A DNA stretch of 64,000 nucleotides, taken from Amycolatopsis camponoti (GTDB lineage Bacteria > Actinomycetota > Actinomycetes > Mycobacteriales > Pseudonocardiaceae). Each line of letters opens with the position of its first letter. The first letter of the stretch is position 1. Below are positions 1,197 through 44,643 of the stretch, piece by piece. Below the pieces are notes generated by a model, which saw only the letters and a list, made by a program, of their open reading frames with translations, was not told the origin of the DNA and made no database searches. The stretch spans positions 62,001 to 126,000 of the forward strand of contig NZ_CABVGP010000003.1 in assembly GCF_902497555.1 (NCBI RefSeq), given 5' to 3'. The position numbers and the translations under genes are program-made.

Positions 1197-1356
1197 GAAG
1201 GTCGTCGTCGCCCTGGAGAAGGACTTCCGGCCAGGGTTCGACCCCAATGTGAACAACGCCGTGGTCCACAACGGAGCCCATGCGCCCTCCGTCACCGCCT
1301 ACCTCACCGACAGACTCACCGGCGCCGCCATAGCGGGAGGTTCGCATGCGCGATGA
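1197..1356 (+). pseudogene. C-terminal remnant of alpha/beta-hydrolase gene
   Basis: The reading frame ending at 1356 encodes about 53 residues homologous to the C-terminus of the intact hydrolase at 5838-6701. Shared blocks include VVALEKD, NAVVHNGAHA, VTAYLTD and LTG(A/T)AIA. Upstream of residue EKVVVALEKD the similarity stops abruptly, and the part carrying the nucleophilic serine is gone. The stop codon overlaps the start of the following caspase-STAND gene by 11 nt (1346-1356), exactly as in the intact pair (6691-6701). This indicates deletion after duplication of a two-gene unit. The remnant may survive only to provide translation initiation for the downstream gene. An open frame reaches back to 1012, but its N-terminal part is unlike any protein. 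Confidence 0.75.
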
Positions 1357-4300
1357 CAGCGAGCCGCGGCGGTATCTGATCGCAACCGCTATCGCGAACT
1401 ACCCGAATCAGCCTAGCTGGAACCGGCCCAGGCTCGGCGCAGCACGCGACGAAATCGTCTGGCTCTTCACGCAGGATCTCGGGTACAAGCACATCAGCGA
1501 CTTAGGTTTGAACCCGACTCGCGGACAGCTGACAACGCTGCTGCGAGACTTCTGCCGGCACAAGGACCGTCGTGAAGACGACCTGTTAGCCGTCTACATC
1601 GGCGGGCACGGCGAAGTCCTCGACGCCACCCATGAGCACGTCCTACTCACCACGGACACGACACCAGACGACATCGAGGACGCGCTGCCGACCGCGGAGC
1701 TGGCCCGCAAGATGCTGCTCGGCACCAAGGTCCGCCGGGTGCTCCTGATGCTGGACACCTGCTACTCCGGCCAGGGCGGCAGTGAACTCACCGCGGCCGC
1801 GATCACCAAGATGACCCGCAACTGGGGCGATGACGACGGGGCAGGCCTGGCCGTCATCACGTCCGCACAGCCGTCCGAGCAAGCCGGAACGGGCGCCTTC
1901 TCACTGCTTCTGCGCGACGCGGTCCGCAGCCTGCCTGTGGCTGGATACAACCCCGCTACGTTGCCACTGGACTCGATCGTCAAGGCCATGAACGCGAACG
2001 CGAGCAAACCCGGCTATCAGACAATCGGACACAGCATCGCTGGCCTGACCGGGGAGGTCCCGCCTTTCCTGCCCAATCCGCGGCGCCACCCGCGGATGAC
2101 TGAGGTCGACCTGTCGATACAGCACGCCAGTGAATTCGAGATTCAGGCCGAACGCCGCGACACGGAGCTTCGGACTCGGCTGCTGGTGCGCGCAATGGGC
2201 GGCAGCAGCCGAGGCAACGGCGGCTGGTGGTTCGCGGGCCGCCGCACCGCGCTACTGGACATCACCGCCTGGCTGCACGCCCCTGATCCGGAGCGGCCAT
2301 TGCAGGTTGTTACCGGTAACCCGGGATCCGGCAAGACCGCTGTTCTCGGTCTGATCGCCACCCTCACCCACCCCCAACGCCGCGCGACCGTTCCGCTGCA
2401 CGCCCTCAGACTTCCCGCTGCAGCCGTGCCCAGGTTAGGCGCAGTCGACGTGGCGATCTACGCCCAGAGCCTGACCACCGACCAAGTCTTGGCCGGCATC
2501 GCTGCCGCCGTGCGTTCCCACGCCAGCACACCTGGCCAGCTCCTGGAGGAGCTCAGCTGCAGGGACACACCGCTGACCGTGCTTATTGACGCCCTCGACG
2601 AAGCTGCCGACCCCGACCACCTCACTCGCCGACTGCTCCGCCCCTTGGTCGATCACGCCGAAGGGCAACTGCGGCTGCTGGTCGGCACCCGGGACTTCCT
2701 GCTCGCCCGCCTCGGCCTGGACCGAGAAGACAGTGTCGACCTAGATGCCGACCGCTACGCCGATCTCGACGCGCTCACCGCCTACGCCGCGCGCGGCCTA
2801 CTCGAAGCCAACCCCAACAGCCCCTACCTCGACGCACCGCCGCCGATGATCCGAGCCGTCGCAGACGCTGTCGCCGCGGCCGCCAACCCCTCGTTTCTGG
2901 TCGCACGGATCACCAGCGCCACCCTCGCCGCGCAGGACGAGGCCGTCGACCCAGCCAATGATGCTTGGCGACGATCATTGCCGGCCTATCCCGGCGATGC
3001 GATGCGCCACGACCTGGAAAGCCGGCTCGGCGCCAATGCCGCCAAGGCGCGCGACCTGCTCCGTCCACTTGCTTTTGCCGAAGGCCAGGGCTTGCCCTGG
3101 GAAGACATTTGGGCTGCCGTGGCCTCCCGCGCGGCCGGTACCACCTATACCGACGACGATCTGTTCTGGCTGCGCGAGCACGCCGGTTCCTACGTCGTGG
3201 AAGCCGCCGAATCCGATCGCTCCACTTACCGGCTCTACCATCGGGCCCTTGCCGACCACCTCCAAGCCGATGTCGACGCCACCGCGATGCATAGGGCCAT
3301 TGCAGAGGTTCTGGTGACCCGAGTTCCGCGTGCGCTCGACGGCCGCCGCGACTGGACGCATGCCCACCCGTACACCCTCCGCCACCTCGCGACCCACGCC
3401 GCGCGAGCCGGCCACATCGACAATCTGGTCGCCGACACTGAGTATCTCGTGCACGCCGAGCCCGATGCGCTCTTGCTGGCTCTACACAAGACCACCACTG
3501 AGACCTGCTCGCGCGCCGCCGCGGTGTACCGCTGCTCCGCCGACATCCATCGTCACCTGCCAGCATCACGCCGTCGCCAGGTTCTTGCTGTCGACGCCGC
3601 CCGCTTCCTGGCCACACAACTCCAACGCGATCTGTGCGCGCTGCTGACGTGGCAACCACGCTGGGCGACTGGACAGCAAGCCGACCCGGCCCTGCACGCG
3701 ACTTTCTCGGGCCATACCGACTGGGTGAGGGCAGCAGCTTGCGGTGCCCTTGATGGTCGCCCGGTCGCCATCACCGGCGGTGATGATAAGACTGTCCGGG
3801 TTTGGGACCTCGCCACCGGCAGCGAGGTCGCCGCCTTCACTGGCCATACCGACTGGGTGAACGCAGTGGCATGTGCTGCCCTTGACGGCCGCCCGGTCGC
3901 CATCACCGGCAGCGACGACGACACGGTGCGGGTCTGGGACCTCGCCACCGCAGGAGAATTGACCACATTTACCGGCCACACCGACTGGGTGAACGCAGTG
4001 GCATGTGCCGCCCTTGACGGCCGCCCGGTCGCCATCACCGGCAGCGACGACTACACGGTGCGGGTCTGGGACCTCGCCACAGGCAGCGAGCTCGCCACCT
4101 TCACCGGCCACACCGGCTCCATCCGCGCGGTGGCCTGCGCTGAGCTTGACGGCCGCCCAGTCGCCATCACGGGCAGCGACGACAAGACCGTGCGGGTCTG
4201 GGACCTCGCCACCGCACAGGAACTAACCACATTCACCGGCCACACCGGCTCCATCCGCGCGGTGGCCTGCGCTGAGCTTGACGGCCGCCCAGTCGCCATC

Positions 4301-5524
4301 ACGGGCAGCGACGACAAGACCGTGCGGGTCTGGGACCTCGCCACCGCACAGGAACTAACCACATTCACCGGCCACACCGGCTCCATCCGCGCGGTGGCCT
4401 GCGCTGAGCTTGACGGCCGCCCAGTCGCCATCACGGGCAGCGACGACAAGACCGTGCGGGTCTGGGACCTCGCCACCGCACAGGAACTAACCACATTCAC
4501 CGGCCACACCGACTGGGTGAACGCAGTGGCATGTGCTGCCCTTGACCGCCGCCCGGTCGCTGTCACCGTCGGTGACGATGCGACTGCGCGGGTTTGGCGA
4601 TTGCCCATCGAAGCTGTCGTTTTGCCTGCAGGTCCCGGTCACTCTGCCGATATCCGTGCTGAGACAAGCTGCGTGCTTGATGGCTGTCCGGTCGCGATCA
4701 CCGCTGGCGACGACAAGTCCGTGCGGGTCTGGGACCTCGCTACCGGCAGCGAGCTCGCCATCTTCACCGGCCACACCGGCTCCGTCCGCGCGGTGGCTTG
4801 CGCTGAGCTTGACGGCCACCCAGTCGCCATCACTGCCAGCAGCGACAAGACTGCGCGGGTCTGGGACCTCGCCACCGGCAGCGAGCTCGCCACCTTCACC
4901 GGCCACACCGGCCCGGTCCGCGCGGTGGCCTGCGCTGAGCTTGATGGCCGCTCTGTCGCTGTGACCGGCGACGACAAGACCACGCATGTGTGGGACATAG
5001 CCACGGCAGAGGAACTCGACTATTTCACCGGCCGCCACACCGGTTGGGCGAAGCAGTTGGCTTGTGCTGAGCTCGGTGGTCGCTCGGTCGCCGTTGCCGT
5101 CGGGGGCGACGGGGCCGTACCGGTCTGGGACCTAGCCACCGGCAGTCAGCTTGCCATTTTCACCGGCCACACCGGCTCCGTCCACGCGGTGGCTTGCGCC
5201 GAGCTTGACGGCCACCCAGTCGCCATCACCGCCGGCGATGACAAGATCGTGCGAGTGTGGAACCTTGCCACCGCGGAGGAACTGACCACGTTCACCGGCC
5301 ACACCGGCTCGGTGCACGCGGTGGCCTCCGGCGTTCTTGATGGCCGCCCGATAGCCGTTACCGCCAGCGACAAGATCGCGCGGGTGTGGGACCTCGCCAC
5401 CGCGAAGGAGCTCGCCGTCTGCGACCTCCGCAATATCGGCCGTGTCGCGATTGGACCTGGCGGTGAACTCATGATCACAGCAGGCTGGGACCTCGTCGTC
5501 CTCGACCGTATCGGGAACTCATGA
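1346..5524 (+). CDS. Caspase-like peptidase - STAND NTPase - WD40 receptor-like protein (copy 1)
   Basis: The 1392-residue protein has three parts. Residues ~8-240 form a peptidase C14 (caspase/metacaspase-like) domain, with the catalytic histidine in GGHGE (H88) and the catalytic cysteine in DTCYSG (C139). Residues ~300-560 form a P-loop NTPase with Walker A GNPGSGKT (324-331) and Walker B VLIDALDEA (412-420), typical of STAND/NACHT proteins, followed by a helical region. From residue ~789 to the end are fourteen WD40 repeats of 42-44 residues, consistent with two seven-bladed propellers. Repeats 4-6 are identical at the DNA level. In this architecture the propellers are expected to sense a ligand, the NTPase to oligomerise and the caspase to be the proteolytic output; that is family knowledge. 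The target is unknown. The start overlaps the hydrolase remnant by 11 nt, suggesting translational coupling. Confidence 0.93.
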   Translation: MRDDSEPRRYLIATAIANYPNQPSWNRPRLGAARDEIVWLFTQDLGYKHISDLGLNPTRGQLTTLLRDFCRHKDRREDDLLAVYIGGHGEVLDATHEHVLLTTDTTPDDIEDALPTAELARKMLLGTKVRRVLLMLDTCYSGQGGSELTAAAITKMTRNWGDDDGAGLAVITSAQPSEQAGTGAFSLLLRDAVRSLPVAGYNPATLPLDSIVKAMNANASKPGYQTIGHSIAGLTGEVPPFLPNPRRHPRMTEVDLSIQHASEFEIQAERRDTELRTRLLVRAMGGSSRGNGGWWFAGRRTALLDITAWLHAPDPERPLQVVTGNPGSGKTAVLGLIATLTHPQRRATVPLHALRLPAAAVPRLGAVDVAIYAQSLTTDQVLAGIAAAVRSHASTPGQLLEELSCRDTPLTVLIDALDEAADPDHLTRRLLRPLVDHAEGQLRLLVGTRDFLLARLGLDREDSVDLDADRYADLDALTAYAARGLLEANPNSPYLDAPPPMIRAVADAVAAAANPSFLVARITSATLAAQDEAVDPANDAWRRSLPAYPGDAMRHDLESRLGANAAKARDLLRPLAFAEGQGLPWEDIWAAVASRAAGTTYTDDDLFWLREHAGSYVVEAAESDRSTYRLYHRALADHLQADVDATAMHRAIAEVLVTRVPRALDGRRDWTHAHPYTLRHLATHAARAGHIDNLVADTEYLVHAEPDALLLALHKTTTETCSRAAAVYRCSADIHRHLPASRRRQVLAVDAARFLATQLQRDLCALLTWQPRWATGQQADPALHATFSGHTDWVRAAACGALDGRPVAITGGDDKTVRVWDLATGSEVAAFTGHTDWVNAVACAALDGRPVAITGSDDDTVRVWDLATAGELTTFTGHTDWVNAVACAALDGRPVAITGSDDYTVRVWDLATGSELATFTGHTGSIRAVACAELDGRPVAITGSDDKTVRVWDLATAQELTTFTGHTGSIRAVACAELDGRPVAITGSDDKTVRVWDLATAQELTTFTGHTGSIRAVACAELDGRPVAITGSDDKTVRVWDLATAQELTTFTGHTDWVNAVACAALDRRPVAVTVGDDATARVWRLPIEAVVLPAGPGHSADIRAETSCVLDGCPVAITAGDDKSVRVWDLATGSELAIFTGHTGSVRAVACAELDGHPVAITASSDKTARVWDLATGSELATFTGHTGPVRAVACAELDGRSVAVTGDDKTTHVWDIATAEELDYFTGRHTGWAKQLACAELGGRSVAVAVGGDGAVPVWDLATGSQLAIFTGHTGSVHAVACAELDGHPVAITAGDDKIVRVWNLATAEELTTFTGHTGSVHAVASGVLDGRPIAVTASDKIARVWDLATAKELAVCDLRNIGRVAIGPGGELMITAGWDLVVLDRIGNS
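3710..5503 (+). repeat. Fourteen WD40 repeats, copy 1
   Basis: The region codes for fourteen consecutive WD40 units with the recurring elements GHT, AVAC, LDGRPVAI and VRVWDLAT. Unit 7 ends atypically (RVWRLP) and is followed by a longer linker before unit 8, which marks the boundary between two sets of seven. The last unit is divergent (GPGGELMITAGWDL). Differences between units cluster just after the GH dipeptide and around the SDDxT turn. Confidence 0.85.
4106..4501 (+). repeat. Three perfect tandem copies of a 132-bp WD40 unit
   Basis: Copies at 4106-4237, 4238-4369 and 4370-4501 read as identical base for base, each encoding one 44-residue WD40 repeat beginning GHTGSIRAVAC. Such identity, including third codon positions, shows very recent unit duplication or gene conversion inside the gene. 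Confidence 0.95.
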
Positions 5525-5837
5525 ATTGACTCGGTCAATACATGGCCACGAGTCCAGTTTCCCGTTTCATGTTTGCAAACCGTTACTCTCGAACGGAACG
5601 TTGTTCGAATCATTGCAGATTGCGCTGGGGTCGGGCCTATACTCGAGCGTGCACTATTCCCTGAGGGTGCCCTGGGCACCTGCGGCACTTGGTTCGACAC
5701 GGCGCACCTCGATCGCGCTATCGAAACGCTGGGCCATTCGAGTGTTCGATAGTCCGGGCAGGAACGGGTACGCCGTAGCCGACGATCACTAGCCGTAGCG
5801 TGCCGTGAAGTGGTGTGCACTCGTGTTGGGAGGCATG
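5525..5837 (+). promoter_or_regulatory. Intergenic region with candidate promoter and inverted repeat
   Basis: No gene is evident between the first receptor gene and the intact hydrolase. A small hairpin, ATTGAC-TCG-GTCAAT (5525-5539), follows the stop codon. At 5589-5608 there is an inverted repeat, TCGAAC-N8-GTTCGA. Just downstream, TTGCAG (5613-5618) and TATACT (5638-5643) could be a -35/-10 pair with a long 19-bp spacer. Together these could form a regulated promoter for the hydrolase and second receptor gene. The LexA-like half sites are 8 rather than 4 bp apart, so this is not a standard SOS box. Confidence 0.35.
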
Positions 5838-6701
5838 ATGGGGCGGATCGTCTGCGTGCACGGCATCGGCCAGCACGCGGTCGGCGAGGAACTGCTGCTC
5901 CGCGACTGGCAGCCGGCCCTGCTGGACGGACTCACTCGCGCCGACCATCGCGACGCCGTTAACGCCAGCGACGTCGCGATGGCGTTCTACGGGCATCTGT
6001 TCCGCCCAGCCGGGGAACGCCTGGCCGTCGGCGATCCGTTCTTCACCGCCGACGACGTCGAAACAGGCCTCGAGGAGGACCTCTTGCTGGCGTGGTGGAC
6101 GGAGGCCGCGCGGGTGGATCCGAAAGTCGCGCCACCGGGAGCGGACACGCTCGTGCGCGTACCCGGCTCGGTGCAGGCGGCGCTCCGGCAGCTGTCCCGT
6201 TCCCGCTTTTTCGGTGGCCTGGCTTTGCGAGCGATGGTGTTCGACCTCAAACAGGTCAGCCGCTACCTCCGCGATCCGCACCTACGGGAGGCGGCGCAAG
6301 CCACGGTGGGGAAGCTGATCACCGAGGACACCCGGGTAGTGGTGGCGCATTCGCTGGGGTCGGTGGTGGCCTACGAAACGCTCGCGGCGATGCCCGGCCA
6401 TCAGGTGCGAGCGCTGGTGACACTGGGGTCGCCGCTGGGGATCGCGAACCTGATCTTCGACCGGCTAGAACCGGCGCCCCGCGACGGGCTCGGCGCCTGG
6501 CCCGGCTCCGACGACCTGACTTGGACGAACATCGCCGACCACGGCGACGTCGTCGCGCTGGAAAAAGACCTGCGCCCCCGGTTCGGGCCGCGGGTGGACA
6601 ACGCCGTCGTGCACAACGGCGCCCACGCCCACGCCGTCACCGCCTACCTCACCGACAAGCTCACCGGAACCGCGATCGCGGACGGCCTGCATGTCCGCTG
6701 A
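5838..6701 (+). CDS. Alpha/beta-hydrolase (esterase/lipase-like) paired with caspase-STAND gene
   Basis: The protein is about 287 residues long when started at the ATG at 5838, which has GGGAGG 4 nt upstream; an in-frame ATG at 5835 is too close to that site. VCVHGIGQ near the N-terminus is the oxyanion-hole strand-turn of alpha/beta-hydrolases, and AHSLGS (S172) is the nucleophile elbow. The C-terminal VVHNGAHAH carries a plausible catalytic histidine. There is no signal peptide, so it should act in the cytoplasm, possibly on lipids or esters. Its stop overlaps the start of the next gene by 11 nt, indicating coupled production. A truncated homologue sits in the same place before the first receptor gene. 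A role as partner or second effector of the caspase-STAND protein is inferred from this linkage. Confidence 0.85.
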   Translation: MGRIVCVHGIGQHAVGEELLLRDWQPALLDGLTRADHRDAVNASDVAMAFYGHLFRPAGERLAVGDPFFTADDVETGLEEDLLLAWWTEAARVDPKVAPPGADTLVRVPGSVQAALRQLSRSRFFGGLALRAMVFDLKQVSRYLRDPHLREAAQATVGKLITEDTRVVVAHSLGSVVAYETLAAMPGHQVRALVTLGSPLGIANLIFDRLEPAPRDGLGAWPGSDDLTWTNIADHGDVVALEKDLRPRFGPRVDNAVVHNGAHAHAVTAYLTDKLTGTAIADGLHVR

Positions 6702-9700
6702 CACCACGCGACCGCGCCGCTACCTGATCGCCACCGCGATCGCCCACTACCCGAACGCCCCGCAGTTGGACAAACCCGGCCTAGTCGAGGCCCGTGACCA
6801 GATCATCACCCTGTTCACCGAGGATCTCGGCTACGAGCACGTCCACACCCTCGGCCTCGACCCGACCCGAGAGCAGCTGCCCCGCCTGCTGCGCGCCTTC
6901 TGCCGTGACGAGGCCCGGCATCCTGAGGACATCGTGGCCGTCTACATCACCGGCCACGGCGAAGTCCTCGACGACACCCACGAACACGTCCTACTGACCT
7001 CCGACGCCGATCCCGACGACGTCGAAGACGCGATGCGCACCGCACACCTGGCTCAGAAAATGCTCCACGGAACCCGGGTCCGGCGGGTGCTGCTGATGCT
7101 GGACACCTGCTACTCCGGCCACGGCGGCAACGAACTCACTGCCGCAGCCATCACCGCCATGACGCAGAGGTGGGGCGACGAACCCGGATCCGGGCTGGCC
7201 GTCATCACCTCCGCCCAGCCAGCCCAGCAAGCCGAAACCGGCGCCTTCCCACGCCTGCTGCGCGACGCGATCCAAGCACTGCCGACCGCCGGGTCCAACC
7301 CGGCCGCGTTACCCCTGGACGCTCTCGTGGCCGCGATGAACACCAACGCGAGCCGGCCTGGCTACCAGACCATCGGGTACGGCGTCACCGGGCTGACCGG
7401 CGAGATCCCGCCGTTCCTCCCCAACCCCCGCCACGACCTGCAGATGACCGAGGTCGACCTGGCCATCCAGCAGGCCAGGGAGTTCGAGACGCAGGCCGAC
7501 CGCCGCGACACCGAACTGCGGACCCGGTTGCTGGTGCGGGCGATGGGCGGCAGTAGCAACGGCACCGGCGGCTGGTGGTTCGCCGGCCGGCACGCCGCAC
7601 TGCTCGAAGTCACCGCCTGGCTGCGGCATCCGAACCCGGCGCGGCCGCTGCAGGTCGTCACCGGCAACCCCGGATCCGGGAAGACCGCCGTCCTCGGCCT
7701 CATCGCCACCCTCACCCACCCCGAGCGCCGGGCCACGGTTCCCCTGCACAGCCTCGCGCTCCCCGCTGCCGCGGTCCCACAGGTCGGGGCGGTGGATGTC
7801 GCGATCTACGCGCAGAGCCTGACCACCGACCAGGTGCTGGCCGGGATCGCCGCCGCCGTGCACTCCCGCGCCGACACCCCCGGCCGGCTCCTGGATGACC
7901 TCCTCGGCCGGGACACACCGTTGACGGTTCTCGTCGACGCCCTCGACGAAGCCAGCGACCCCGACCACCTCGTTCGCAGCCTGCTGCGCCCACTAGCCGA
8001 ACACGCGGCAGGACGGCTGCGGCTGCTGCTGGGCACCCGGGACTTCCTACTCGACCTGCTCGGCCTGCGCCGCGACACTGCCATCGATCTGGACGCCGAC
8101 CGCTACGCCGACCCTCTCGCCCTGACCACCTACGCCGCTCGTGGCCTGCTCGAGGCCCATCCCGACAGCCCCTACCGCGATCAGCCACCGGAGCTGCTGC
8201 GCGCCGTCGCCGACGCCGTCGCCACGGCCGCGCACCCCTCGTTCCTGGTCGCACGGATCACCAGCGCCACCCTCGCTGCGCAACCCGACGCCGCCGACCC
8301 ACGCGATCCGGCCTGGCGCCGGAGCTTGCCGCGGCTGCCGGGCGAGGCGATGCGCCGCGACCTGGATACCAGACTCGGCCGCAAAGCGGCCATGGTGCGA
8401 GACCTGCTGCGCCCGCTGGCCTTCGCCGAAGGCCAAGGCCTGCCCTGGGAGGACATCTGGGCCGCCGTCGCCTCCCGTGCGGCCGGCGCCTCATATACCG
8501 ACGACGACCTGTTCTGGCTGCGCAGGCATGCCGGGTCCTACGTCGTCGAAGCCACCGAAGGCGGCCATTCCACCTACCGGCTTTACCACCGGGCCCTCGC
8601 CGACTACCTTCGCGAGGACGTCGACGCGACCGCCGCTCACAAGGCCATCGTCGACGTACTGCTGACCCGGGTACCGCGCGCACTCGCCGGGTCTCGGGAC
8701 TGGACGCGCGCGCACCCTTACACGCTGCGCCACCTCGCCACCCACGCCGCCCTCGCCGGTGAGATCGACGCGCTCGTCGCCGACACTGAGTACCTGGTCC
8801 ACGCCGAGCCTGGCACGCTCCTGCCGGCCCTGCACCGGACCAGCACAGATGCCGCGGCGCTTATCGCTGCGGTCTACCGCTGCTCCGCAGATACCCATCG
8901 CCAGCTGCCGCCGCTAGGACGTCGACAGCTGCTGGCCGCCGATGCCGCCCGCTTCCGGGCCACACGGCTTCACCACGAGTTATCTGCACCGCTGGTGTGG
9001 CGGCCACGCTGGGCGACCGGAGGGCAAACGACCCACGCCCTCCACACCACCCTCACCGGCGCTGTTGTAGCGGTGGCGTGCAGCACCCTCGACGGCCGCC
9101 CAGTCGCCGTCACCACCAGCCACGACGGGACTGCGTGGGTCTGGGACCTCGCTACCGGCACCACCATCACCACCTTCACCGGCCACGCCGGCGCGGTAGT
9201 GGCGGTGGCCTGCAGCACCCTCGACGGCCGACCGGTCGCCGTCACCACCAGCGACGACGACACCACGCGGGTCTGGGACCTCGCTACCGGCACCACCATC
9301 ACCACCTTCACCGGCCACATCGGCGCGGTGGTGGCGGTGGCCTGCAGCACCCTCAACGGGCGTCCGGTTGCTGTCACCGGCGGCTCCGACGGGACTGCGT
9401 GGGTCTGGGACCTCGCTACCGGCACCACCATCACCACCTTCACCGGCCACGCCGGCGCGGTAGTGGCGGTGGCCTGCAGCACCCTCAACGGGCGTCCGCT
9501 TGCCGTCACCGGCGGCTCCGACCAGACCGCACGGGTCTGGGACCTCGCTACCGGCACCACCATCACCACCACCGGCCACAGCAGCCCGGTACTGGCGGTG
9601 GCCTGCAGCACCCTCAACGGCCACCCAGTCGACGTCACTGTCGGCCACGACGCTGCGCGGGTCTGGGACCTTGCCACCGGCACCACCATCACCACCTTCA

Positions 9701-10854
9701 CCGGCCACACCTACCCGATGGGGGCGGTGGCCTGCAGCACCCTGAACGGCCGACCGATCGCGGTCACCGCCAGCTACAACACCGCACGGGTCTGGGACCT
9801 CGCTACCGGCACCACCATCACCACCTTCACCACCCACACCGACTCGGTGGTGGCGGTGGCCTGCGGCACCCTCGACGGCCGACCGGTCGCCGTCACCGCC
9901 AGCTACGACGGGACCGTGCGGGTTTGGTCATTCTTGGCCGAGGCATTCCGGGCGTCCGCCGCACTCGGTCACTCAGGCGCAATCCATGCTCAGGCAAGCA
10001 CGGTCCTCCATGGCTGCCCGGTCGCCGTCACCGCCAGCTACGACGGGACCGCGCGGGTCTGGGACCTCGCCACCGGCACCACCATCACCACCTTCACCGG
10101 CCACAGCTACCCGGTGGGGGCAGTGGCCTGCAGCACCCTCGACGGGCGCCCGGTCGCCGTCACCGGCGGCTCCGACGGGACTGCGTGGGTCTGGGACCTC
10201 GCGACCGGCACCACCATCACCGCCTTCACCAGCCGCTACCCGGTGGGGGCGGTGGCCTGCAGCACCCTCGACGGGCGCCCAGTCGCCGTCACCGCCAGCC
10301 ACGACAGGACCGCGCGAGTCTGGGACCTCGCCACCGGCACCACCATCACCGACTTCACTGGCCACACCGGCGCAGTACTGGCGGTGGCCTGCAACACCCT
10401 CGACGGCCGATCGATCGCCGTCACCGGCGGCTCCGACGACACCGCGCGAGTCTGGGACCTGGCTACCCGCACCACCGTCACCACCTTCACCCGCCACACC
10501 GGCGCGGTAACGGCGGTGGCCTGCCACACCCTCGACGGGCGCCCAGTCGCCGTCACCACCAGCCACGACAGGACCGCGCGAGTCTGGGACCTCGCCACCG
10601 GCACCACCATCACCGACTTCACTGGCCACACCGGCGCGGTACTGGCGGCGGCCTGCAACACCCTCGACGGGCGCCCAGTCGCCGTCACCGCAAGCCACGA
10701 CGGGACCGCGCGGATCTGGGACCTTTCTACAGGTGAGGAGGTCGCAGTCTTCGACATTCGCGGTATCGGCGCCGTGGCGTTCGGGCCTGGCGGAGTTCTC
10801 ATGATCGCGGCGGGATGGGACCTCATCGTGTTCGACCGCGTTGCGCAACACTGA
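6691..10854 (+). CDS. Caspase-like peptidase - STAND NTPase - WD40 receptor-like protein (copy 2)
   Basis: This 1387-residue paralogue of the 1346-5524 product has the same order: a peptidase C14 domain with GHGE (H89) and DTCYSG (C140), an NTPase with Walker A GNPGSGKT (325-332) and Walker B VLVDALDEA (413-421), a helical linker and fourteen WD40 repeats. The first ~780 residues align with copy 1 almost without gaps, whereas the WD40 units are homogenised within each gene. Here they carry STLDGRPVAV and LATGTTITTFTGH, in copy 1 AELDGRPVAI and LATGSEL. The catalytic residues are intact in both copies. The gene overlaps the upstream hydrolase by 11 nt. It is expected to be a ligand-triggered oligomerising protease; the trigger and substrates are unknown. 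Confidence 0.93.
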   Translation: MSADTTRPRRYLIATAIAHYPNAPQLDKPGLVEARDQIITLFTEDLGYEHVHTLGLDPTREQLPRLLRAFCRDEARHPEDIVAVYITGHGEVLDDTHEHVLLTSDADPDDVEDAMRTAHLAQKMLHGTRVRRVLLMLDTCYSGHGGNELTAAAITAMTQRWGDEPGSGLAVITSAQPAQQAETGAFPRLLRDAIQALPTAGSNPAALPLDALVAAMNTNASRPGYQTIGYGVTGLTGEIPPFLPNPRHDLQMTEVDLAIQQAREFETQADRRDTELRTRLLVRAMGGSSNGTGGWWFAGRHAALLEVTAWLRHPNPARPLQVVTGNPGSGKTAVLGLIATLTHPERRATVPLHSLALPAAAVPQVGAVDVAIYAQSLTTDQVLAGIAAAVHSRADTPGRLLDDLLGRDTPLTVLVDALDEASDPDHLVRSLLRPLAEHAAGRLRLLLGTRDFLLDLLGLRRDTAIDLDADRYADPLALTTYAARGLLEAHPDSPYRDQPPELLRAVADAVATAAHPSFLVARITSATLAAQPDAADPRDPAWRRSLPRLPGEAMRRDLDTRLGRKAAMVRDLLRPLAFAEGQGLPWEDIWAAVASRAAGASYTDDDLFWLRRHAGSYVVEATEGGHSTYRLYHRALADYLREDVDATAAHKAIVDVLLTRVPRALAGSRDWTRAHPYTLRHLATHAALAGEIDALVADTEYLVHAEPGTLLPALHRTSTDAAALIAAVYRCSADTHRQLPPLGRRQLLAADAARFRATRLHHELSAPLVWRPRWATGGQTTHALHTTLTGAVVAVACSTLDGRPVAVTTSHDGTAWVWDLATGTTITTFTGHAGAVVAVACSTLDGRPVAVTTSDDDTTRVWDLATGTTITTFTGHIGAVVAVACSTLNGRPVAVTGGSDGTAWVWDLATGTTITTFTGHAGAVVAVACSTLNGRPLAVTGGSDQTARVWDLATGTTITTTGHSSPVLAVACSTLNGHPVDVTVGHDAARVWDLATGTTITTFTGHTYPMGAVACSTLNGRPIAVTASYNTARVWDLATGTTITTFTTHTDSVVAVACGTLDGRPVAVTASYDGTVRVWSFLAEAFRASAALGHSGAIHAQASTVLHGCPVAVTASYDGTARVWDLATGTTITTFTGHSYPVGAVACSTLDGRPVAVTGGSDGTAWVWDLATGTTITAFTSRYPVGAVACSTLDGRPVAVTASHDRTARVWDLATGTTITDFTGHTGAVLAVACNTLDGRSIAVTGGSDDTARVWDLATRTTVTTFTRHTGAVTAVACHTLDGRPVAVTTSHDRTARVWDLATGTTITDFTGHTGAVLAAACNTLDGRPVAVTASHDGTARIWDLSTGEEVAVFDIRGIGAVAFGPGGVLMIAAGWDLIVFDRVAQH
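9055..10830 (+). repeat. Fourteen WD40 repeats, copy 2
   Basis: Fourteen units of about 42 residues share ATGTTITTFTGH and CSTLDGRPVAVT. As in copy 1, unit 7 ends atypically (RVWSF) and a longer linker containing LGHSG precedes unit 8. The final unit is the divergent GPGGVLMIAAGWDL form. Long stretches are repeated at nucleotide level, such as the segment coding for DLATGTTITTFTGH. Confidence 0.85.
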
Positions 10855-18452: not shown

Positions 18453-18500
18453 TCTATGGCGGATCGCTCCTCGGATCGTGAAGAGAAAGGAGACACCCCC

Positions 18501-19340
18501 ATGTCCACGAGCCACAACGAAGCCCCCACCCGCACGGTGGACGTCGACGGAACCGCTTTCGCCTACCGGGAACTCGGCACCGGATCGGGCGTTCCGGTCA
18601 TCCTGCTGCACCACTTCACGGCGGTTCTCGACGACTGGGACCCCGCCGTGGTCGACGGCTTGGCCGCGGAACGCCGGGTCATCCTGGTCGACCTGCGCGG
18701 CGTCGGCGCCACGGGCGGCAGCACACCCGACAGCGTGGAGGCCATGGCCGCGGACGCCGTCGCCTTCGTTCGCGCGCTCGGCCTGGCGACCGTCGACCTG
18801 CTCGGCTTCTCCCTCGGCGGCATGGTCGCGCAAGCGTTCGTCCGGCAGGAACCGGACCTCGTCCGCCGCCTGATCCTGGCGGGCACCTCACCCGCGGGCG
18901 ACGCCGGACCGGCGAACGCCTTCCCGGTGCTGCAGGAGGCCATCGAGAAGGCAACCGGCGCGGGCAAGCACCCCAAGCACTTCCTGTTCTTCTCCCCCAC
19001 GGAGACCAGCCAGGCCGCCGCCGACGCGTTCCTCGGCCGTCTTGAGCAGCGCACCGCCGACCGCGACCCGGCGGCCACGAACGAGACCATCGGGGCCCAG
19101 GTCACCGCGCTGGCCAAGTGGGAGCGCAGCAGCACACCGGCCGGCCTCGCGAACGTCTCGCAGCCCGTCCTGGTGGTCAACGGGGACAACGACGTCATGA
19201 TCCCGACGATCAGCTCGTTCACCCTCGCCCGGGCGCTGCCGAACGCCCGGCTGAGCATCTACCCGGACTCGGGCCACGGGGCGCTCTTCCAGCACCACGA
19301 GCTGTTCGTCCGGCAGGCGCTGGACTTCCTCCGCGACTGA
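18501..19340 (+). CDS. Alpha/beta-hydrolase (3-oxoadipate enol-lactonase/haloperoxidase-like)
   Basis: The protein has about 279 residues from the ATG at 18501, which follows AAAGGAG; an upstream in-frame start at 18456 lies inside the promoter region. PVILLHHFTAVLDDWDP supplies the oxyanion region, LLGFSLGGMVAQ the nucleophile serine, VVNGDNDVMIP the acid, and YPDSGHGALFQ the histidine. These give a complete Ser-Asp-His triad of the epoxide hydrolase/haloperoxidase-like group. It is divergent from and presumably controlled by the TetR at 17785. Confidence 0.87.
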   Translation: MSTSHNEAPTRTVDVDGTAFAYRELGTGSGVPVILLHHFTAVLDDWDPAVVDGLAAERRVILVDLRGVGATGGSTPDSVEAMAADAVAFVRALGLATVDLLGFSLGGMVAQAFVRQEPDLVRRLILAGTSPAGDAGPANAFPVLQEAIEKATGAGKHPKHFLFFSPTETSQAAADAFLGRLEQRTADRDPAATNETIGAQVTALAKWERSSTPAGLANVSQPVLVVNGDNDVMIPTISSFTLARALPNARLSIYPDSGHGALFQHHELFVRQALDFLRD

Positions 19341-29886: not shown

Positions 29887-31010
29887 CAGGTCTCCCACAG
29901 CTCCGGTGCCCACGAGGCGACAGCCTTCTGCATCAGCCGATTCCGGTAGTCGTCCGACACGCCCGTGTAGATCGCCGTGGTGCTGGCATGCCGGTGGCCC
30001 ACCTGTTCCTGCACGAACCGGGGCGGGTAGCCGAACTCCACCAGGTGGGTGACGTAGGAGTGCCGTAGGCAGTGCAGGTCAAGCTCCGGATCCAGCCCTG
30101 CAGCATCCCTGACGGCCTGGAACGCCTCACTGATCCCGCGCCGCGCGAGCCGGCTGCCGCGTTCGGTGACCAGCAGCGCCGACTGCGACCTACGAATCAG
30201 CGTCGGACGGATTTCTTCGAGCCACTGCTCGAGCGGTTCGAGCACCCAGTCCATCTCGGGCACCAGCAGTACCGTGCGCGGTTTTGGCGGGCTGCCGTTG
30301 GACGACTTGCCCCACCGGACGAACAGTCCACCGCAGGTGCCGAACCGTGGAACGTGTGGGTTGGTCCGGAAGTCCGGCAGGTCAATTCCCCACGCTTCAC
30401 GGCGCCGCAGACCGAACGCGTAGACCACTTTCAGCACCAGGGCGTTGCGCATGGCAGTCACAGATCCTTTGCGGCCTCGCGCTCGGATCTGCTCGATCAG
30501 GCCATCGGCGGTATCGAACAGCGCCTGCACTTCGTCGTAACTCAGCGGTCGCCGTCCTGGCCGGCATTCCACGTCTGCGACATGCCGGATGCTGTTGAAC
30601 TCGTGCAGCACCATCTGCGGCGCGGAGCCGAAACGCTGCTCGCACACCACCGGCCAGCCATACCGCGGATCCGTGACATAGCCTAGAAAGAGCCGCAGCA
30701 CGCACTCGTAGCCACGCATCGTCGACATCGCCAAAGGTCGCCCATTCGAGGTCAGATCAGCGAAGAACGCCTCGACCTCCGCGGATGTCCACTGCCATGG
30801 GTACTGGTTGGACACCCGCGCGACACGGCGCACGAAACCGACCCGGTTTTCGATCACCTGCGGCTTGACCGCACGCACACGCTGCTGTCGGTCCCAGCCG
30901 GACAACATCGCCTCGAAGACCGACGTCTCAGGATCGAGATAGGCGACCCCGTCGACGAGCATCAAGCCGGCGGAGCCCGTCAACTCAGTGCCGTTCTCCA
31001 TGCGTTGCAT
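29886..31010 (-). CDS. Tyrosine recombinase/integrase
   Basis: The 374-residue integrase has an N-terminal SAM-like DNA-binding domain (WTSAEVEAFFADL, MRGYECVLRLFLGYV) and a complete catalytic domain. The first arginine is in FGLRRREAW, HCLRHSYVTHL supplies H-x-x-R, VQEQVGHRHASTTAIYTGV contains the second histidine and the nucleophilic tyrosine, and a lysine lies near RWGKSS. It is the first gene of the module. It points away from dnaE2, whose regulatory region begins ~250 bp away. The attachment site could not be identified. Confidence 0.92.
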   Translation of the reverse strand: MQRMENGTELTGSAGLMLVDGVAYLDPETSVFEAMLSGWDRQQRVRAVKPQVIENRVGFVRRVARVSNQYPWQWTSAEVEAFFADLTSNGRPLAMSTMRGYECVLRLFLGYVTDPRYGWPVVCEQRFGSAPQMVLHEFNSIRHVADVECRPGRRPLSYDEVQALFDTADGLIEQIRARGRKGSVTAMRNALVLKVVYAFGLRRREAWGIDLPDFRTNPHVPRFGTCGGLFVRWGKSSNGSPPKPRTVLLVPEMDWVLEPLEQWLEEIRPTLIRRSQSALLVTERGSRLARRGISEAFQAVRDAAGLDPELDLHCLRHSYVTHLVEFGYPPRFVQEQVGHRHASTTAIYTGVSDDYRNRLMQKAVASWAPELWET

Positions 31011-31340
31011 TTAACACAACATTGTGGCAACGAGCCAGCGGATCGCCATCCGGATAGCCTAACGAGTGACAACCGCAGGCCGACGCGCCGGCCGCCGCCT
31101 CAGCTGCCACCTTTCGCGCCTGTCGGGTCGCAGCTCGGGTGGCGCTACCAGGCGCGTGAGCTGCGGCTTTCCGGCCATCTGGCCATGTTGTGACTGATGC
31201 AACTCTGCCCGGTCTCGATTTGACTGTAGCTGCTGGTCCGACGCATGATGACGACACCTCTGGAACAAGTGTTCGAGCAGGTTGTGACGGTGTGGCTACC
31301 GCCTTCCCCGCGGTGCTCGTGGCGCGTGTGGGAGTACGTG
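31011..31340. other. Intergenic region between integrase and dnaE2
   Basis: No gene is supported here. imuA' and imuB, which often precede dnaE2, are absent on this side. The dnaE2 reading frame is open upstream of its likely GTG start, but that part contains the SOS box and is unlikely to be translated. Adjacent recombinase genes suggest the original upstream neighbourhood was displaced. Confidence 0.5.
31261..31276. promoter_or_regulatory. LexA SOS box upstream of dnaE2
   Basis: TGGAACAAGTGTTCGA matches the actinobacterial LexA consensus TCGAAC-N4-GTTCGA with one mismatch, in the second base. It ends 64 nt before the GTG at 31341, a normal position for DNA-damage control, and its location rules against the longer dnaE2 start at 31245. 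Confidence 0.85.
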
Positions 31341-34300
31341 GTGTCCAGATTCAACGGCGGTGCGGGACGAAGCTGGCGGGAGCTGGAACGGATCGCCTCC
31401 GGCCGGGCCCCGGCGGTGCAGGGCGACGGCGGGGACTCGCCGGCCTGGAGCCGGAAGCGCGACGGCTACCATGCGCCGGCGGACGTGCCGGTGCGGCGCA
31501 GCCGCGACGACGGCGCGGGCGAGCTGCGGCGCCCCTACGCCGAGCTGCACGCCCACAGCTACTTCAGCTTCCTCGACGGCGTGAGCGCGCCCGAAGCTCT
31601 GGTCGAGGAGGCCGCCCGGCTCGGGCTCGACGCGATCATGCTCACCGACCACGACGGCATGTACGGCGCCGTCCGCTTCAGCGTTGCTGCGCGCGAACTC
31701 GGGATCCGCGCCGGGTACGGCGCCGAGCTAAGCCTCGGGCTGTCCGCCCCACAGGCCGGCGTCCCGGATCCCGAAGGGACGCACCTGCTGGTGCTCGCGC
31801 GCGACATCGAGGGCTACCGCCGGGTGTGCCGGGTGATCTCCCACGCTCAGCTCGCGGGAGAGGAGAAGGGCCGCCCGGTCTACGACCTGGATGAGGTCGT
31901 CGACGAGCTGGCCGGGCACGTGCAGGTGCTGACCGGCTGCCGCAAGGGCGCCGTCCGCCAGGCCCTCGTCCAGCGCGGCCCGGCCGCGGCCGCCGACGAA
32001 CTCGCGCTGCTGGTCAACCGGTTCGGGCACCGCAACGTCGCGGTGGAGCTGATCGACCACCGCCAGCCGCTCGACTCCACGCATAACGACCACCTCGCCG
32101 CGATGGCCCGCGAGTTGAAGCTGCCGACGGTGGTGTCGAACAACGTGCACTACACGGGCCCGGACGACGCGTGGCACGCCGACGCCGTCGCCGCGATCCG
32201 CGCGCGGCGGTCGGCCGAGGAGCTGGAAGGGTGGCTGCCGGCGGCCGGGACCGCGTACCTGCGCTCGGGGCAGGAGCAGCTGCGCGCGTTCGAGCGCCGC
32301 TACCCGGGCGCGGTCGCCCGCGCCGCCGTGCTCGGGGTCGAGTGCAGCTTCGACCTCGCGCTGGTCGCGCCGAAGCTGCCGCCGTTTCCGGTGCCGGACG
32401 GCCATGCCGACGAGAACGCGTACTTGCGCCACCTCGTGATGGAGGGCGCGCCCGCCCGCTACGGCACGCCGGCCGACGCGCCGGAGGCCTACGAACAACT
32501 CGAGCGCGAGCTGAAGGTCATCGCCGACCTCGACTTCCCGGGCTACTTCCTGGTGGTGTGGGACATCGTCCGCTTCTGCCACGACCGCGGGATCCTCGCC
32601 CAGGGCCGCGGTTCGGCGGCGAACAGCGCGGTGTGCTTCGCGTTGAGGATCTGCAATGCCGACCCGGTCAGGTGGGGCTTGTTGTTCGAGCGGTTCTTGG
32701 CGCCGGAGCGGGACGGGCCGCCGGATATCGACGTCGACATCGAGTCCGACCGTCGGGAGGAGGCGATCCAGTACGTCTACGAACGGCACGGCAGGCTGCA
32801 CGCCGCGCAGGTCGCCAACGTCATCACCTACCGCGCGCGCTCGGCGGTCCGGGACGCGGCGAAGGCGCTCGGGCACAGCCCCGGCCAGCAGGACGCCTTC
32901 GCCAAGGCCATCGACCGGTGGCGCACAGTCGCCGACGCCGACAACCCGGGCGAGCGCGGGCACGGCGTCCCCGACGACGTCCGCGAACTGGCCGCGCGGC
33001 TGGAGGACTCCCCGCGCCACCTCGGGGTGCACTCCGGCGGGATGGTCATCGCCCACACCCCGGTCTCGGAGATCGTCCCGGTCGAGTGGGCCCGCGCCGA
33101 AGGCCGCACCGTCCTGCAGTGGGACAAGGACGACTGCGCCGAAATCGGGCTGGTCAAGTTCGACCTGCTCGGCCTCGGGATGCTCTCCGCGCTGCGCTAC
33201 TCCATCGACCTCGTCGCCGAGCACCACGGCCGCCGGGTCGACCTCGGCGAGCTAGACCTGGCCGACAAGGCGGTCTACGACATGCTGTGCGACGCCGACG
33301 CGATCGGGGTGTTCCAGGTCGAGTCCCGCGCCCAGCTCGGCACGCTGCCCCGGCTCCGGCCCCGCAAGTTCTACGACCTGGTCGTCGAGGTCGCGCTGAT
33401 CCGTCCCGGGCCGATCCAGGGTGGATCAGTGCACCCCTACATCCGGCGCCGGCGCGGCGAGGAGACCTGGCGCCACGCCCACCCGCTGCTGGCCGACAGC
33501 CTGGACCGCACGCTCGGTGTGCCCTTGTTCCAGGAGCAGGTCATGCAGATGGCCCGCGACGTCGCCTCGTTCACCGCGGCCGAAGCCGACCAGCTGCGCC
33601 GCGCGATGGGCTCGAAACGCTCGGACGCGAAGATGTTCGCGTTGATGAGCAGGTTCTTCGCCGGCTGCGCGGCCAACGGCATCGACCGCCCGCTCGCCGA
33701 GCGAATCTTCGAGCAGATCCACGCGTTCTCCGGCTACGGCTTCCCCGAAGCCCACTCGATGTCCTTCGCGCTGCTGGTCTACGCCTCGGCGTGGTTCAAG
33801 CGGTACTACCCGGCGGCGTTCTGCGCCGGGCTGCTGCGCGCGCAGCCGATGGGCTTCTACTCCCCGCAGTCCCTGGTCGCCGACGCCCGCCGGCACGGCG
33901 TCCTCACCCGCGAACCGAACATCAACGCCAGCCTCGTGCACGCCACGCTCGAACCCGACGCAGCGTCGACGGGCGGGGTGGCGCTGCGGCTCGGGCTGGC
34001 CGGGATCCGCCAAGTCAGCACCGACGTCGCCGAGACGATCGTCGCCGAGCGCGAGGCCAACGGCCCGTACGGCAGCATCGGCGAGCTGCCCGAACGGGTG
34101 CAGCTCAAGCAGCCCGTGGCCGAGGCTCTGGCCACCAGCGGCGCGTTCACCGCGCTCGGCCCGGACCGCCGGCAGGCGCTCTGGGCCGCCGGGGCGGCCG
34201 CGCGGACACGGGCCGGGCACCTGCCCGGCATCGCCACCGGCGTCGACGCGCCCGCACTGCCGGGCATGACGGCCCTGGAGATCGCCGCCGCCGACGTGTG

Positions 34301-34682
34301 GGCCACCGGCATCACCCCCGACCGGCACCCCGTCGAGTTCGTGCGCGAACACCTCGACGAGCTCGGCGTCGTCCCGGCCGCCCGCGTGCTCGACGTCGCC
34401 GACCGCAGCCGCATCCGCGTCGGCGGCGCGGTCACCCACAAGCAACGCCCCGCGACCGCCGGCGGGATCACCTTCCTCAACCTCGAAGACGAGACCGGCA
34501 TGATCAACGTCATCGTCCACCCCAGTACCTGGACAAAATTCCGACAAATCCTGGCCACCAGCTCGGCGCTGGTGATCCGCGGCCAGGCCCAGGTCACCCA
34601 GGGCACCGCGTCGGTAGTCGCCGACCAGATCACCCCGCTGGACCTGCGCGCCCTCGCCAGCAAGTCCCGTGACTTCCGCTGA
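31341..34682 (+). CDS. dnaE2: Error-prone DNA polymerase III alpha subunit (DnaE2/ImuC)
   Basis: The 1113-residue polymerase performs damage-induced mutagenic translesion synthesis with ImuA'/ImuB. I place the start at the GTG at 31341 (VSRFNGGAGRSWRELERI), downstream of the SOS box. The N-terminal PHP domain contains AELHAHSYFSFLDG and LTDHDGMYGA. The C-family polymerase core includes RGSAANSAVCF, PPDIDVDIESDRREE with catalytic aspartates, and KFDLLGLGML. A helix-hairpin-helix region and a C-terminal OB fold (FLNLEDETGMINVIV) follow. The length is normal for DnaE2. imuA'/imuB are not nearby in this window. Confidence 0.96.
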   Translation: MSRFNGGAGRSWRELERIASGRAPAVQGDGGDSPAWSRKRDGYHAPADVPVRRSRDDGAGELRRPYAELHAHSYFSFLDGVSAPEALVEEAARLGLDAIMLTDHDGMYGAVRFSVAARELGIRAGYGAELSLGLSAPQAGVPDPEGTHLLVLARDIEGYRRVCRVISHAQLAGEEKGRPVYDLDEVVDELAGHVQVLTGCRKGAVRQALVQRGPAAAADELALLVNRFGHRNVAVELIDHRQPLDSTHNDHLAAMARELKLPTVVSNNVHYTGPDDAWHADAVAAIRARRSAEELEGWLPAAGTAYLRSGQEQLRAFERRYPGAVARAAVLGVECSFDLALVAPKLPPFPVPDGHADENAYLRHLVMEGAPARYGTPADAPEAYEQLERELKVIADLDFPGYFLVVWDIVRFCHDRGILAQGRGSAANSAVCFALRICNADPVRWGLLFERFLAPERDGPPDIDVDIESDRREEAIQYVYERHGRLHAAQVANVITYRARSAVRDAAKALGHSPGQQDAFAKAIDRWRTVADADNPGERGHGVPDDVRELAARLEDSPRHLGVHSGGMVIAHTPVSEIVPVEWARAEGRTVLQWDKDDCAEIGLVKFDLLGLGMLSALRYSIDLVAEHHGRRVDLGELDLADKAVYDMLCDADAIGVFQVESRAQLGTLPRLRPRKFYDLVVEVALIRPGPIQGGSVHPYIRRRRGEETWRHAHPLLADSLDRTLGVPLFQEQVMQMARDVASFTAAEADQLRRAMGSKRSDAKMFALMSRFFAGCAANGIDRPLAERIFEQIHAFSGYGFPEAHSMSFALLVYASAWFKRYYPAAFCAGLLRAQPMGFYSPQSLVADARRHGVLTREPNINASLVHATLEPDAASTGGVALRLGLAGIRQVSTDVAETIVAEREANGPYGSIGELPERVQLKQPVAEALATSGAFTALGPDRRQALWAAGAAARTRAGHLPGIATGVDAPALPGMTALEIAAADVWATGITPDRHPVEFVREHLDELGVVPAARVLDVADRSRIRVGGAVTHKQRPATAGGITFLNLEDETGMINVIVHPSTWTKFRQILATSSALVIRGQAQVTQGTASVVADQITPLDLRALASKSRDFR

Positions 34683-43388: not shown

Positions 43389-43514
43389 ATGACCGTTTAT
43401 GACAACTGGCGTCGTCCGCTCGACGACATCCACTAGACGCACAATCGTGCAGGTCAGGCAATCCGACGAGGCTGGGCTGCCCGTATCGACCAGCCGACGA
43501 CGGAGACCTTCCGA
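43389..43514 (+). repeat. Duplicated upstream module, copy A (before lanthipeptide cluster)
   Basis: This segment is similar over its full length to 54647-54777. It opens with ATGACCGTTTATGACAACTG, in which ATGAC is directly repeated with 10-bp spacing, one helical turn. Identical blocks include CTCGACGACATCCA, ACAATCGTGCAGGTCAGGCA and CGACGACGGAGACCTTCCGA. It lies 141 nt before the first plus-strand gene of the cluster and is non-coding in appearance. Confidence 0.85.
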
Positions 43515-43654
43515 CCACGGACGAGCGGCGGAGTCGAGGGAGAGTCAAGTCGGCACACAGAAGACCGCAGACCACGGCGTCGCAATACATGCAGCCGCCT
43601 GCCGACTCGCATCCTCAGCCCCCAGCGAGTTCGATCGCGAAAGGAGCCCATTTG

Positions 43655-44092
43655 ATGACCGCAATCCTGACTGCATCCAGGAACTCCCTGTCCGATCTCG
43701 TCACCCGTATGAAGCGTGTGAACCACCGGCTCGATCACGAGGCCAAGTTGATCGCCGATCTGCGGCGATCAAGCTTGACCCCTGCATGCTTCGTGCCGGG
43801 CATCGAGCACCACGCCGCCGCAGCGATCATCCGCGCCGGCCTGCCCGCCATCGAACACCACCGCCGCCCGCTGCAGCCGCGCATCGACGAGCACCTGTTC
43901 CTCGACGTCGCTGCCCGGACAGGAGTGCGAATCCTGGCCTGCTGGGACGACCGTGCGCACCGCGTGCGGATGCAAGTCGCCGAGGTCGGCGAACCGGACC
44001 TGTGGGACCGCATCGTCGTCCTCTTCACCCAGTGGGAGATGAATGGCCGTCCGGTTCCGGTCACAACCAGGACGCATGGATCGGCCTCGTGA
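43655..44092 (+). CDS. Hypothetical protein, first gene of the lanthipeptide cluster
   Basis: The ATG at 43655 follows AAGGAG at 9 nt, giving 145 residues. The N-terminus is helical (NSLSDLVTRMKRVNHRLDHE, then AKLIADLRRS). The C-terminal part contains HLFLDVAARTGVRILACWDD and LWDRIVVLFTQWEMNGRPVP. I recognise no family. It ends overlapping the DUF4254 gene start (GTGA), so it belongs to the same transcript. A role in regulation or maturation is possible but unproven. Confidence 0.7.
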   Translation: MTAILTASRNSLSDLVTRMKRVNHRLDHEAKLIADLRRSSLTPACFVPGIEHHAAAAIIRAGLPAIEHHRRPLQPRIDEHLFLDVAARTGVRILACWDDRAHRVRMQVAEVGEPDLWDRIVVLFTQWEMNGRPVPVTTRTHGSAS

Positions 44093-44643
44093 CTCTCGCA
44101 ACCGAGGTCCCGACGGGCACGCCAGCGGGCGGTTCGCCCGCGCCGCCGCACGCGACAGCTGTGGTCCGTGCATTCACCACCATTCCGCCCGGCGGCTACC
44201 AGCACCCAGTGTTGGCGGCTGCTGCGGCGCTAGCCGCCGAATCCCGGTTACGCGCCAGCGACTATCGGATCGTCTGCGATCCCCGGGCCGACGATCCGAT
44301 AGTCGCTTCGGCCGCGCGGACTGTGCGTTCCCGGGACGCCGAGTGCGCTGTGCTGGTCGACCGGATAGACCGGTGGGCCGCCACGAAACTCGCCGAAGGC
44401 CGCGCAGGGGTGCTGCACACCGAGTCGCTCGGGCAGCTCATCAACCGGATGGTGACGGTCTGGATGCGCGGCCAACTCTTGGCCGACACCTGCACCTCCG
44501 CGACCGACGCGCAGGTGCGGGTCGCCTCGGCGCAGCTGGGTGAGCTGGGCCGCGCCTACGACGACCTGATCACCGACCTGAGGTTGGGGCGGCGCCGTCT
44601 TCCGGAGCTGCAGACGCCTACCGGGCCACAGGGAATGGCGTGA
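44089..44643 (+). CDS. DUF4254 domain protein
   Basis: This 184-residue protein starts at the GTG overlapping the previous stop. Residues ~70-160 carry the DUF4254 hallmark: CAVLVDRIDRWAATKL, then LHTESLGQLINRMVTVWMR, a helical bundle with conserved D, H and E residues. The biochemical role of this family is unknown. It sits in a compact series of plus-strand genes leading to the FxLD methyltransferase and precursor, so it is probably co-expressed. Confidence 0.75.
   Translation: MTLATEVPTGTPAGGSPAPPHATAVVRAFTTIPPGGYQHPVLAAAAALAAESRLRASDYRIVCDPRADDPIVASAARTVRSRDAECAVLVDRIDRWAATKLAEGRAGVLHTESLGQLINRMVTVWMRGQLLADTCTSATDAQVRVASAQLGELGRAYDDLITDLRLGRRRLPELQTPTGPQGMA

Follow-up and report, generated by a model that had tools for sequence, protein, structure and literature searches.

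Multicellular bacteria commonly encode relatives of caspases, few of which have, to our knowledge, a known target. In the account of the VMAP systems given by Kaur et al. (2020, PMC7159879), the caspases are always accompanied by a neighbouring alpha/beta-hydrolase, and related hydrolases are noted in GTPase-centred systems; alpha/beta-hydrolases have furthermore been named as effectors for the hydrolysis of membrane lipids in related systems (Kaur et al., 2021, PMC8195603). Bacterial metacaspase-NACHT-WD40 proteins had been catalogued by 2012 (PMC3501461), and it has been described more recently that in Hachiman and AVAST a pro-nuclease is opened by a sensor-fused protease, a role that is taken by a caspase in Canu (2025, PMC12799240). 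In this study, we analysed a stretch of 64,000 nucleotides of Amycolatopsis camponoti DNA (contig NZ_CABVGP010000003.1, positions 62,001 to 126,000; this whole stretch is referred to as the window), in which two adjacent genes encode caspase-STAND-WD40 proteins and the second of them overlaps the gene of an intact alpha/beta-hydrolase (5838-6701). We show here that a single hydrolase family keeps its partnership with caspases whether the caspase belongs to a STAND-WD40, a VMAP or an FHA/TPR protein, which is what this analysis adds. We lean towards the idea, based on sequence evidence, that the type of unit found at 5838-10854 is a two-gene NLR-like conflict unit, serving abortive defence or cell death, in which the hydrolase would be the other half of the effector.

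The linkage between the two genes was followed in two sets of genomes. For the GTDB-wide set, a hydrolase alignment was searched against one genome per species and the best 80 of 466 confirmed stretches were retained; among these, a caspase gene is found near 78 of 79 full-length hydrolases, the single orphan (L039) being located near rpoB in Nocardia alni. The caspase gene lies just downstream in 53 of the 78 pairs, upstream in 24 and on the other strand, 2 kb off, in one, where one of the 24 upstream pairs (L003, second hydrolase) counts the caspase of the neighbouring unit at a distance of 601 nucleotides, its own caspase being a stub. As best-hit sampling is biased, every match was fetched in a survey of 80 Amycolatopsis genomes, which gave 56 hydrolase matches in 36 genomes. 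All 46 full-length hydrolases of this set have a caspase, 44 of them as judged by our profile and two by a directly upstream gene with a Pfam caspase match. Hydrolase fragments stand outside these counts (four pieces GTDB-wide and 11 in Amycolatopsis, four of the latter 11 having no caspase), as do two plasmid-collection records (L001 and L002), both of which carry a caspase beside the hydrolase; the loci of A. vastitatis (L003 = L202) and A. rifamycinica (L051 = L160) are common to both sets. Caspase neighbours were scored with a profile built from the caspase hits at these same loci, and Pfam agrees with this profile (E <= 0.001) for 16 of 23 proteins in one set and 9 of 10 in another; the 23 proteins are 23 of 68 caspase open reading frames with fewer than four WD hits, some of which still match WD40 families.

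The possibility that the two genes are chance neighbours was rejected, because control regions are nearly free of caspases. Around 40 places of another alpha/beta-hydrolase family in the same genomes (query, window 18456-19337), no listed caspase lies within 7 kb and one lies within 10 kb, and a local profile search of the regions around 20 of these 40 places revealed a caspase domain in one, about 6 kb off. The chance expectation is 0.3% at 0.2 listed caspases per Mb, among the at least 150 listed. When scored against the same listed caspases, 20 of the 56 studied hydrolase matches lie no more than 7 kb from one; this figure stays below the 46 of 46 given above because weaker divergent partners fall beyond the 150 listed (of at least 150). 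Amycolatopsis matches with E values of about 1e-50 first looked like a caspase-free outgroup of the hydrolase, as the single-sequence caspase search listed none beside most of them, and this interpretation was abandoned once the local profile search had found a divergent caspase gene beside 25. The rule runs from the hydrolase to the caspase and not in reverse, since 19 of 150 listed Amycolatopsis caspase domains (at least 150 in all) are within 7 kb of this hydrolase; the exception is the nearest caspase subfamily, in which the top 11 of 11 caspase matches, among those listed, have the hydrolase. A lack of conserved linkage had been named in the sequence-only reading as an outcome that would speak against a hydrolase-caspase unit, and this objection fails, because the linkage (78/79 and 46/46) is far above that in the control regions (1/20).

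The hydrolase of the window (P0002, 287 residues, 5838-6701, plus strand) starts with an ATG that is preceded by a good ribosome-binding sequence, GGGAGG, and its TGA (6699-6701) and the ATG of the downstream caspase gene (6691) are placed such that the two genes overlap by 11 nucleotides. In an alignment of 36 sequences, H171-S172-L-G (HSLG), D237 and H265 are invariant, and the residues S172 (6351-6353), D237 (6546-6548) and H265 (6630-6632) are kept in 99-100% of 126 diverse hydrolases. Together with an AlphaFold model that shows an alpha/beta-hydrolase fold (mean predicted local distance difference test score 85), this Ser-Asp-His triad places the protein in the alpha/beta-hydrolase superfamily. 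Lysosomal phospholipase A2, bacterial LipA and a mycobacterial thioesterase are among the nearest solved structures, with tied scores; a sequence search of the PDB with the hydrolase profile gave 0 matches, and the nearest relatives, where named, are mostly from Amycolatopsis. The protein is probably cytosolic and an export signal is unlikely, because the predicted fold already starts at residue 4 with a core strand.

Copy 1 of the caspase-STAND-WD40 protein (P0001, 1392 residues, 1346-5524) and copy 2 (P0003, 1387 residues, 6691-10854, with its start codon within the hydrolase gene) are both encoded on the plus strand and were delimited by open reading frame and domain searches. The caspase domain spans 1346-2107 in copy 1, with H88 (1607-1609) and C139 (1760-1762), and 6691-7455 in copy 2, with H89 (6955-6957) and C140 (7108-7110). 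It is followed by a STAND/NACHT-like P-loop NTPase region at 2231-2707 and 7576-8052, respectively, in which the P-loop GNPGSGKT is found at residue 324 of copy 1 (2315-2338, K330) and residue 325 of copy 2 (7663-7686, K331), and the acidic Walker B motif reads LIDALDE in copy 1 and LVDALDE in copy 2. Thirteen WD40 repeats occupy 3698-5521 in copy 1 and another 13 occupy 9043-10851 in copy 2, VW-anchored and 42-45 residues apart in both. Pfam Peptidase_C14 scores 27.3 and 28.8 bits in copies 1 and 2 (cut-off 21.4), the NACHT-like NPHP3_N 28.7 and 26.6 bits (cut-off 24.8) and WD40 (PF00400) has E values of 8e-76 and 7e-48; the Pfam NACHT model itself remains under its cut-off (16 bits versus 26.7). 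The gathering score, the His-Cys dyad and the caspase fold assign both proteins to the Peptidase C14 (caspase) family, and the P-loop, the acidic Walker B and the NACHT-like domain followed by repeats assign them to the STAND/NACHT-type signal NTPases. From what is established for STAND proteins, as discussed by Kaur et al. (PMC7159879), this is the layout of an NLR-like receptor, in which the repeats would sense, the NTPase would assemble and the caspase would act. The sequence-only reading had described two adjacent genes with intact dyads, Walker motifs and WD40 propellers, and our open reading frames, residue numbers and Pfam matches agree with this description.

The two copies are 66.9% identical over 1391 aligned positions, identity being highest in the STAND region (77%), lower in the caspase (69%) and lowest in the WD40 part (59%). 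The mean ungapped identity of the repeats is 54 and 56% within each protein as compared with 46% between the proteins, a few repeats being out of register, and in copy 1 the repeats 5 and 6 are identical in their DNA (132 nucleotides), while repeat 4 differs from them at 4 of 132 nucleotides. Because repeats are more alike within a protein and near-identical in their DNA in copy 1, the sensor part appears to have undergone recent repeat turnover, and repeats 4-6 of copy 1 point to a very recent amplification. Copy 1 has also been preceded by a hydrolase gene, of which the C-terminal 50 codons and the stop codon are left (1204-1356, plus strand), again overlapping the caspase start codon by 11 nucleotides. 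This remnant (1204-1353) is 76% identical (38/50) to hydrolase residues 238-287, lacks the triad Ser and Asp and has a Pro where the catalytic His would stand; further upstream, from about 1203, the DNA has no match to the second unit. The earlier claim that each copy follows an overlapping hydrolase gene or its remnant is thus borne out, and the duplication of the unit is real, even though one of its two hydrolases has been lost; the start of the unit, previously put at 1197, is 7 nucleotides early, as the remnant alignment begins at 1204. We also considered that the locus might be a pair of pseudogenes and rejected this, since the dyads, the P-loops and the triad of 5838-6701 are intact and the remnant concerns the first hydrolase only.

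When placed on a rapidly built hydrolase tree (126 sequences), the three arrangements of the two genes require 7 changes, of which well-supported branches force two for the downstream, two for the upstream and one for the divergent arrangement, a rough estimate owing to long branches. The partner proteins vary as well. With a WD profile whose source was the repeats of copies 1 and 2 themselves, at least four WD repeats are found in the partner in 53 of 78 GTDB-wide pairs and 11 of 44 Amycolatopsis pairs. Two cyanobacterial hydrolases (L065 and L066), 48 and 46% identical to that of the window, lie directly upstream of genes for caspase-VMAP-M14-VMAP-C proteins, and the partner of a more distant Amycolatopsis hydrolase (L151) carries VMAP-M2. 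In the divergent arrangement, found once per genome in 25 of the 80 Amycolatopsis genomes (within L146-L193), the hydrolase gene faces the caspase gene across 68-225 nucleotides; among the 11 of these 25 partners scanned with Pfam, 10 have Peptidase_C14, nine TPR and six FHA, and partner L191, with TPR as its sole Pfam match, is recognized by the caspase profile at 2e-8. The divergent pair may represent a form of the module that belongs to the core genome.

The catalytic residues of both enzymes are complete in 77 of 78 GTDB-wide pairs and 43 of 44 Amycolatopsis pairs. A single locus, shared by the two sets, accounts for the exception in each, namely an A. vastitatis tandem hydrolase lacking Ser and His. 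In this tandem (L003, 3342-9940), unit 1 keeps its caspase and its hydrolase has lost the Ser; unit 2 keeps the hydrolase and about 30 residues of the caspase are left. A different outcome is seen in a single Amycolatopsis gene (L150, 6375-10442, minus strand), which joins a hydrolase relative and a caspase relative to SEFIR/TIR and TPR; here the caspase Cys has been lost and the hydrolase retains Ser and Asp without the His and the HG motif.

Gasdermins are known to destroy membranes by pore formation, and an enzymatic route to a similar end can be envisaged for the unit studied here. From the gene pair, its domains, its intact active sites and its conserved linkage we infer the following mechanism. 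The WD40 propellers would bind a ligand or restrain the protein, and the STAND NTPase would switch and oligomerise, such that the clustered caspase domains become active. The hydrolase made alongside would most likely be a latent intracellular lipase or esterase, turned on by the caspase through cleavage or direct contact, and once activated it would damage lipids and halt the cell. We hold these steps with different degrees of confidence. Hydrolase and caspase very probably form one functional module, because of their strict co-occurrence, the coupling of their genes and their shared loss, and the unit is likely, on sequence grounds, to act in conflict or regulated death. Whether the caspase activates the hydrolase, by cleavage or contact, and so precedes it in the pathway, we regard as evenly balanced, since this idea draws on the analogy with the protease-opened pro-nucleases of Hachiman, AVAST and Canu, and a membrane lipid as its substrate can be suggested tentatively. 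Possible, though on the doubtful side, is the further-reaching proposal that the hydrolase works as a lipase under caspase activation, a bacterial executioner that would break membranes down enzymatically, within a cassette that is portable across WD40-STAND, VMAP, FHA/TPR and other sensors in actinobacteria and cyanobacteria. As the hydrolase is almost never found away from a caspase (one of 79, among the best 80 of 466 loci) and both active sites are kept, it is a strong candidate for a native caspase substrate or co-effector. With these two genes, the question of what bacterial caspases cut becomes directly testable, and if the hydrolase is indeed activated by the caspase, a lipase would join nucleases and gasdermins as caspase-dependent killers in bacterial immunity.

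Several points weigh against this reading, and some of them fit other explanations. The fold match leaves the choice of substrate wide, with thioesterases and carboxylesterases scoring close behind. A conserved cleavage site of the Canu/HamM type was not found in the hydrolase, because its low-confidence loops (57-66 and 100-130) hold no Arg or Lys that is conserved in at least 85% of 126 sequences; the conserved R131, K138 and R150 fall in predicted helices. This loop search covered basic residues, chosen because metacaspases favour Arg and Lys (PMC3501461), and the cleavage preference of the present caspase may differ, other residues being possible. Such a result would be consistent with two independent effectors on one sensor, where the assembled STAND oligomer would switch on both enzymes without either activating the other, host proteins being cleaved by the caspase and lipids or acyl groups being the target of the hydrolase. 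The strict maintenance of both active sites and the naming of alpha/beta-hydrolases as lipid-hydrolysing effector domains in related systems (PMC8195603) would agree with this as well; however, independent effectors should frequently occur without a caspase, and the N. alni hydrolase is the single such case among 79, which is why we consider this explanation rather improbable. Caspases are in turn not generally dependent on the hydrolase, as 131 of 150 listed Amycolatopsis caspase domains have none within 7 kb. Copy 1 persists without a hydrolase of its own, and because it has outlived it, the pairing may not be essential or may be provided in trans. The survival of copy 1, together with the intact caspase beside a Ser-less hydrolase in A. 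vastitatis, also argues against a regulatory hydrolase, for example a deacylase or thioesterase which, by taking off an acyl group or ligand, would keep the caspase-STAND protein inactive like an antitoxin or else license it; intact neighbours could act in trans in both cases, and we think such a role very unlikely.

A function outside phage defence has to be weighed too, in which hyphal actinobacteria would use the same module in a programme of development or lysis. The presence of one divergent pair per genome, in 25 of 80 Amycolatopsis genomes, resembles core biology more than mobile defence. Moreover, no defence gene was recognized near the window copies: the three proteins match no family of PADLOC-DB 2.0.0 at E <= 0.1, and none of the Pfam matches of 28 other open reading frames of the window indicates a known defence gene. 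The window type itself behaves differently, however, as a caspase of this type (E < 1e-60) is present in a patchy manner, in 9 of 80 Amycolatopsis genomes, the locus shows duplication, decay and repeat turnover, and a related pair is located on an Embleya plasmid; a developmental or lysis programme seems clearly unlikely. Among the possible roles of the hydrolase, the two offered by the sequence-only reading, a second effector or a substrate of the caspase, are still the best, and the interpretation given in that reading is as a whole partly supported.

The remainder of the window contains a lanthipeptide-type cluster (43399-52294) with a Lant_dehydr_N protein, a LanC-like cyclase, a separate Lant_dehydr_C protein and a PCMT-type methyltransferase, as well as, at 29889-34679, an integrase of the phage type on the minus strand, next to a gene for a DNA polymerase III alpha subunit. 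On the Embleya plasmid (L001), dnaE lies less than 1 kb before the hydrolase-caspase pair, and the likeness to the polymerase gene of the window is probably due to chance. Positions 3-502 of the window are 71% identical to a piece of an Amycolatopsis japonica plasmid.

Our literature search, which had most subscription papers and bioRxiv preprints outside its reach, found no experimental study of such a pair, and the locus can best be placed by comparison with systems described from genomes or by experiment. A related caspase occurs in the EACC1-caspase two-gene membrane system (Kaur et al., 2020), and the NCBIfam model caspase_w_EACC1 scores 52.1 and 55.0 bits with our two copies; these scores are far under the 140-bit cut-off, and the 5' gene encodes a hydrolase, unlike the one-helix EACC1 protein described there. 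As in Canu, Hachiman and AVAST (PMC12799240), a separate gene for an effector enzyme stands beside that of a sensor-linked protease, which in Canu is also a caspase. However, the partner in these systems is described as a nuclease of the metallo-beta-lactamase fold with conserved gating-loop residues, whereas the partner in the window is an alpha/beta-hydrolase in which no such site was found. The metacaspase-NACHT-WD40 proteins have the same domain order of caspase, NACHT-like NTPase and WD40, but unlike the pair in the window, no alpha/beta-hydrolase partner is named in the account of these proteins in PMC3501461. A similar gene content is found in the ternary vWA-MoxR (VMAP) systems, in which a caspase on a large multidomain protein is likewise accompanied by a neighbouring alpha/beta-hydrolase gene (PMC7159879); in L065, L066 and, more distantly, L151 it is a hydrolase of the same family that accompanies such a caspase. 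Unlike in these systems, the protein that carries the caspase in the window continues into a STAND NTPase and WD40 repeats. Pfam shows no VMAP domain in residues 1-785 of copy 1 and 1-780 of copy 2, the C-terminal halves being WD40 among the matches listed, and a scan of 28 other open reading frames of the window revealed neither a MoxR nor a vWA gene. The earlier statement that no system with this pairing was known has to be withdrawn in part, since Kaur et al. (2020, PMC7159879) describe it for VMAP caspases, while the STAND-WD40 sensor and the measured linkage are added here. What is found in the window is a known caspase-hydrolase pairing, here on a STAND-WD40 sensor and with its linkage measured.
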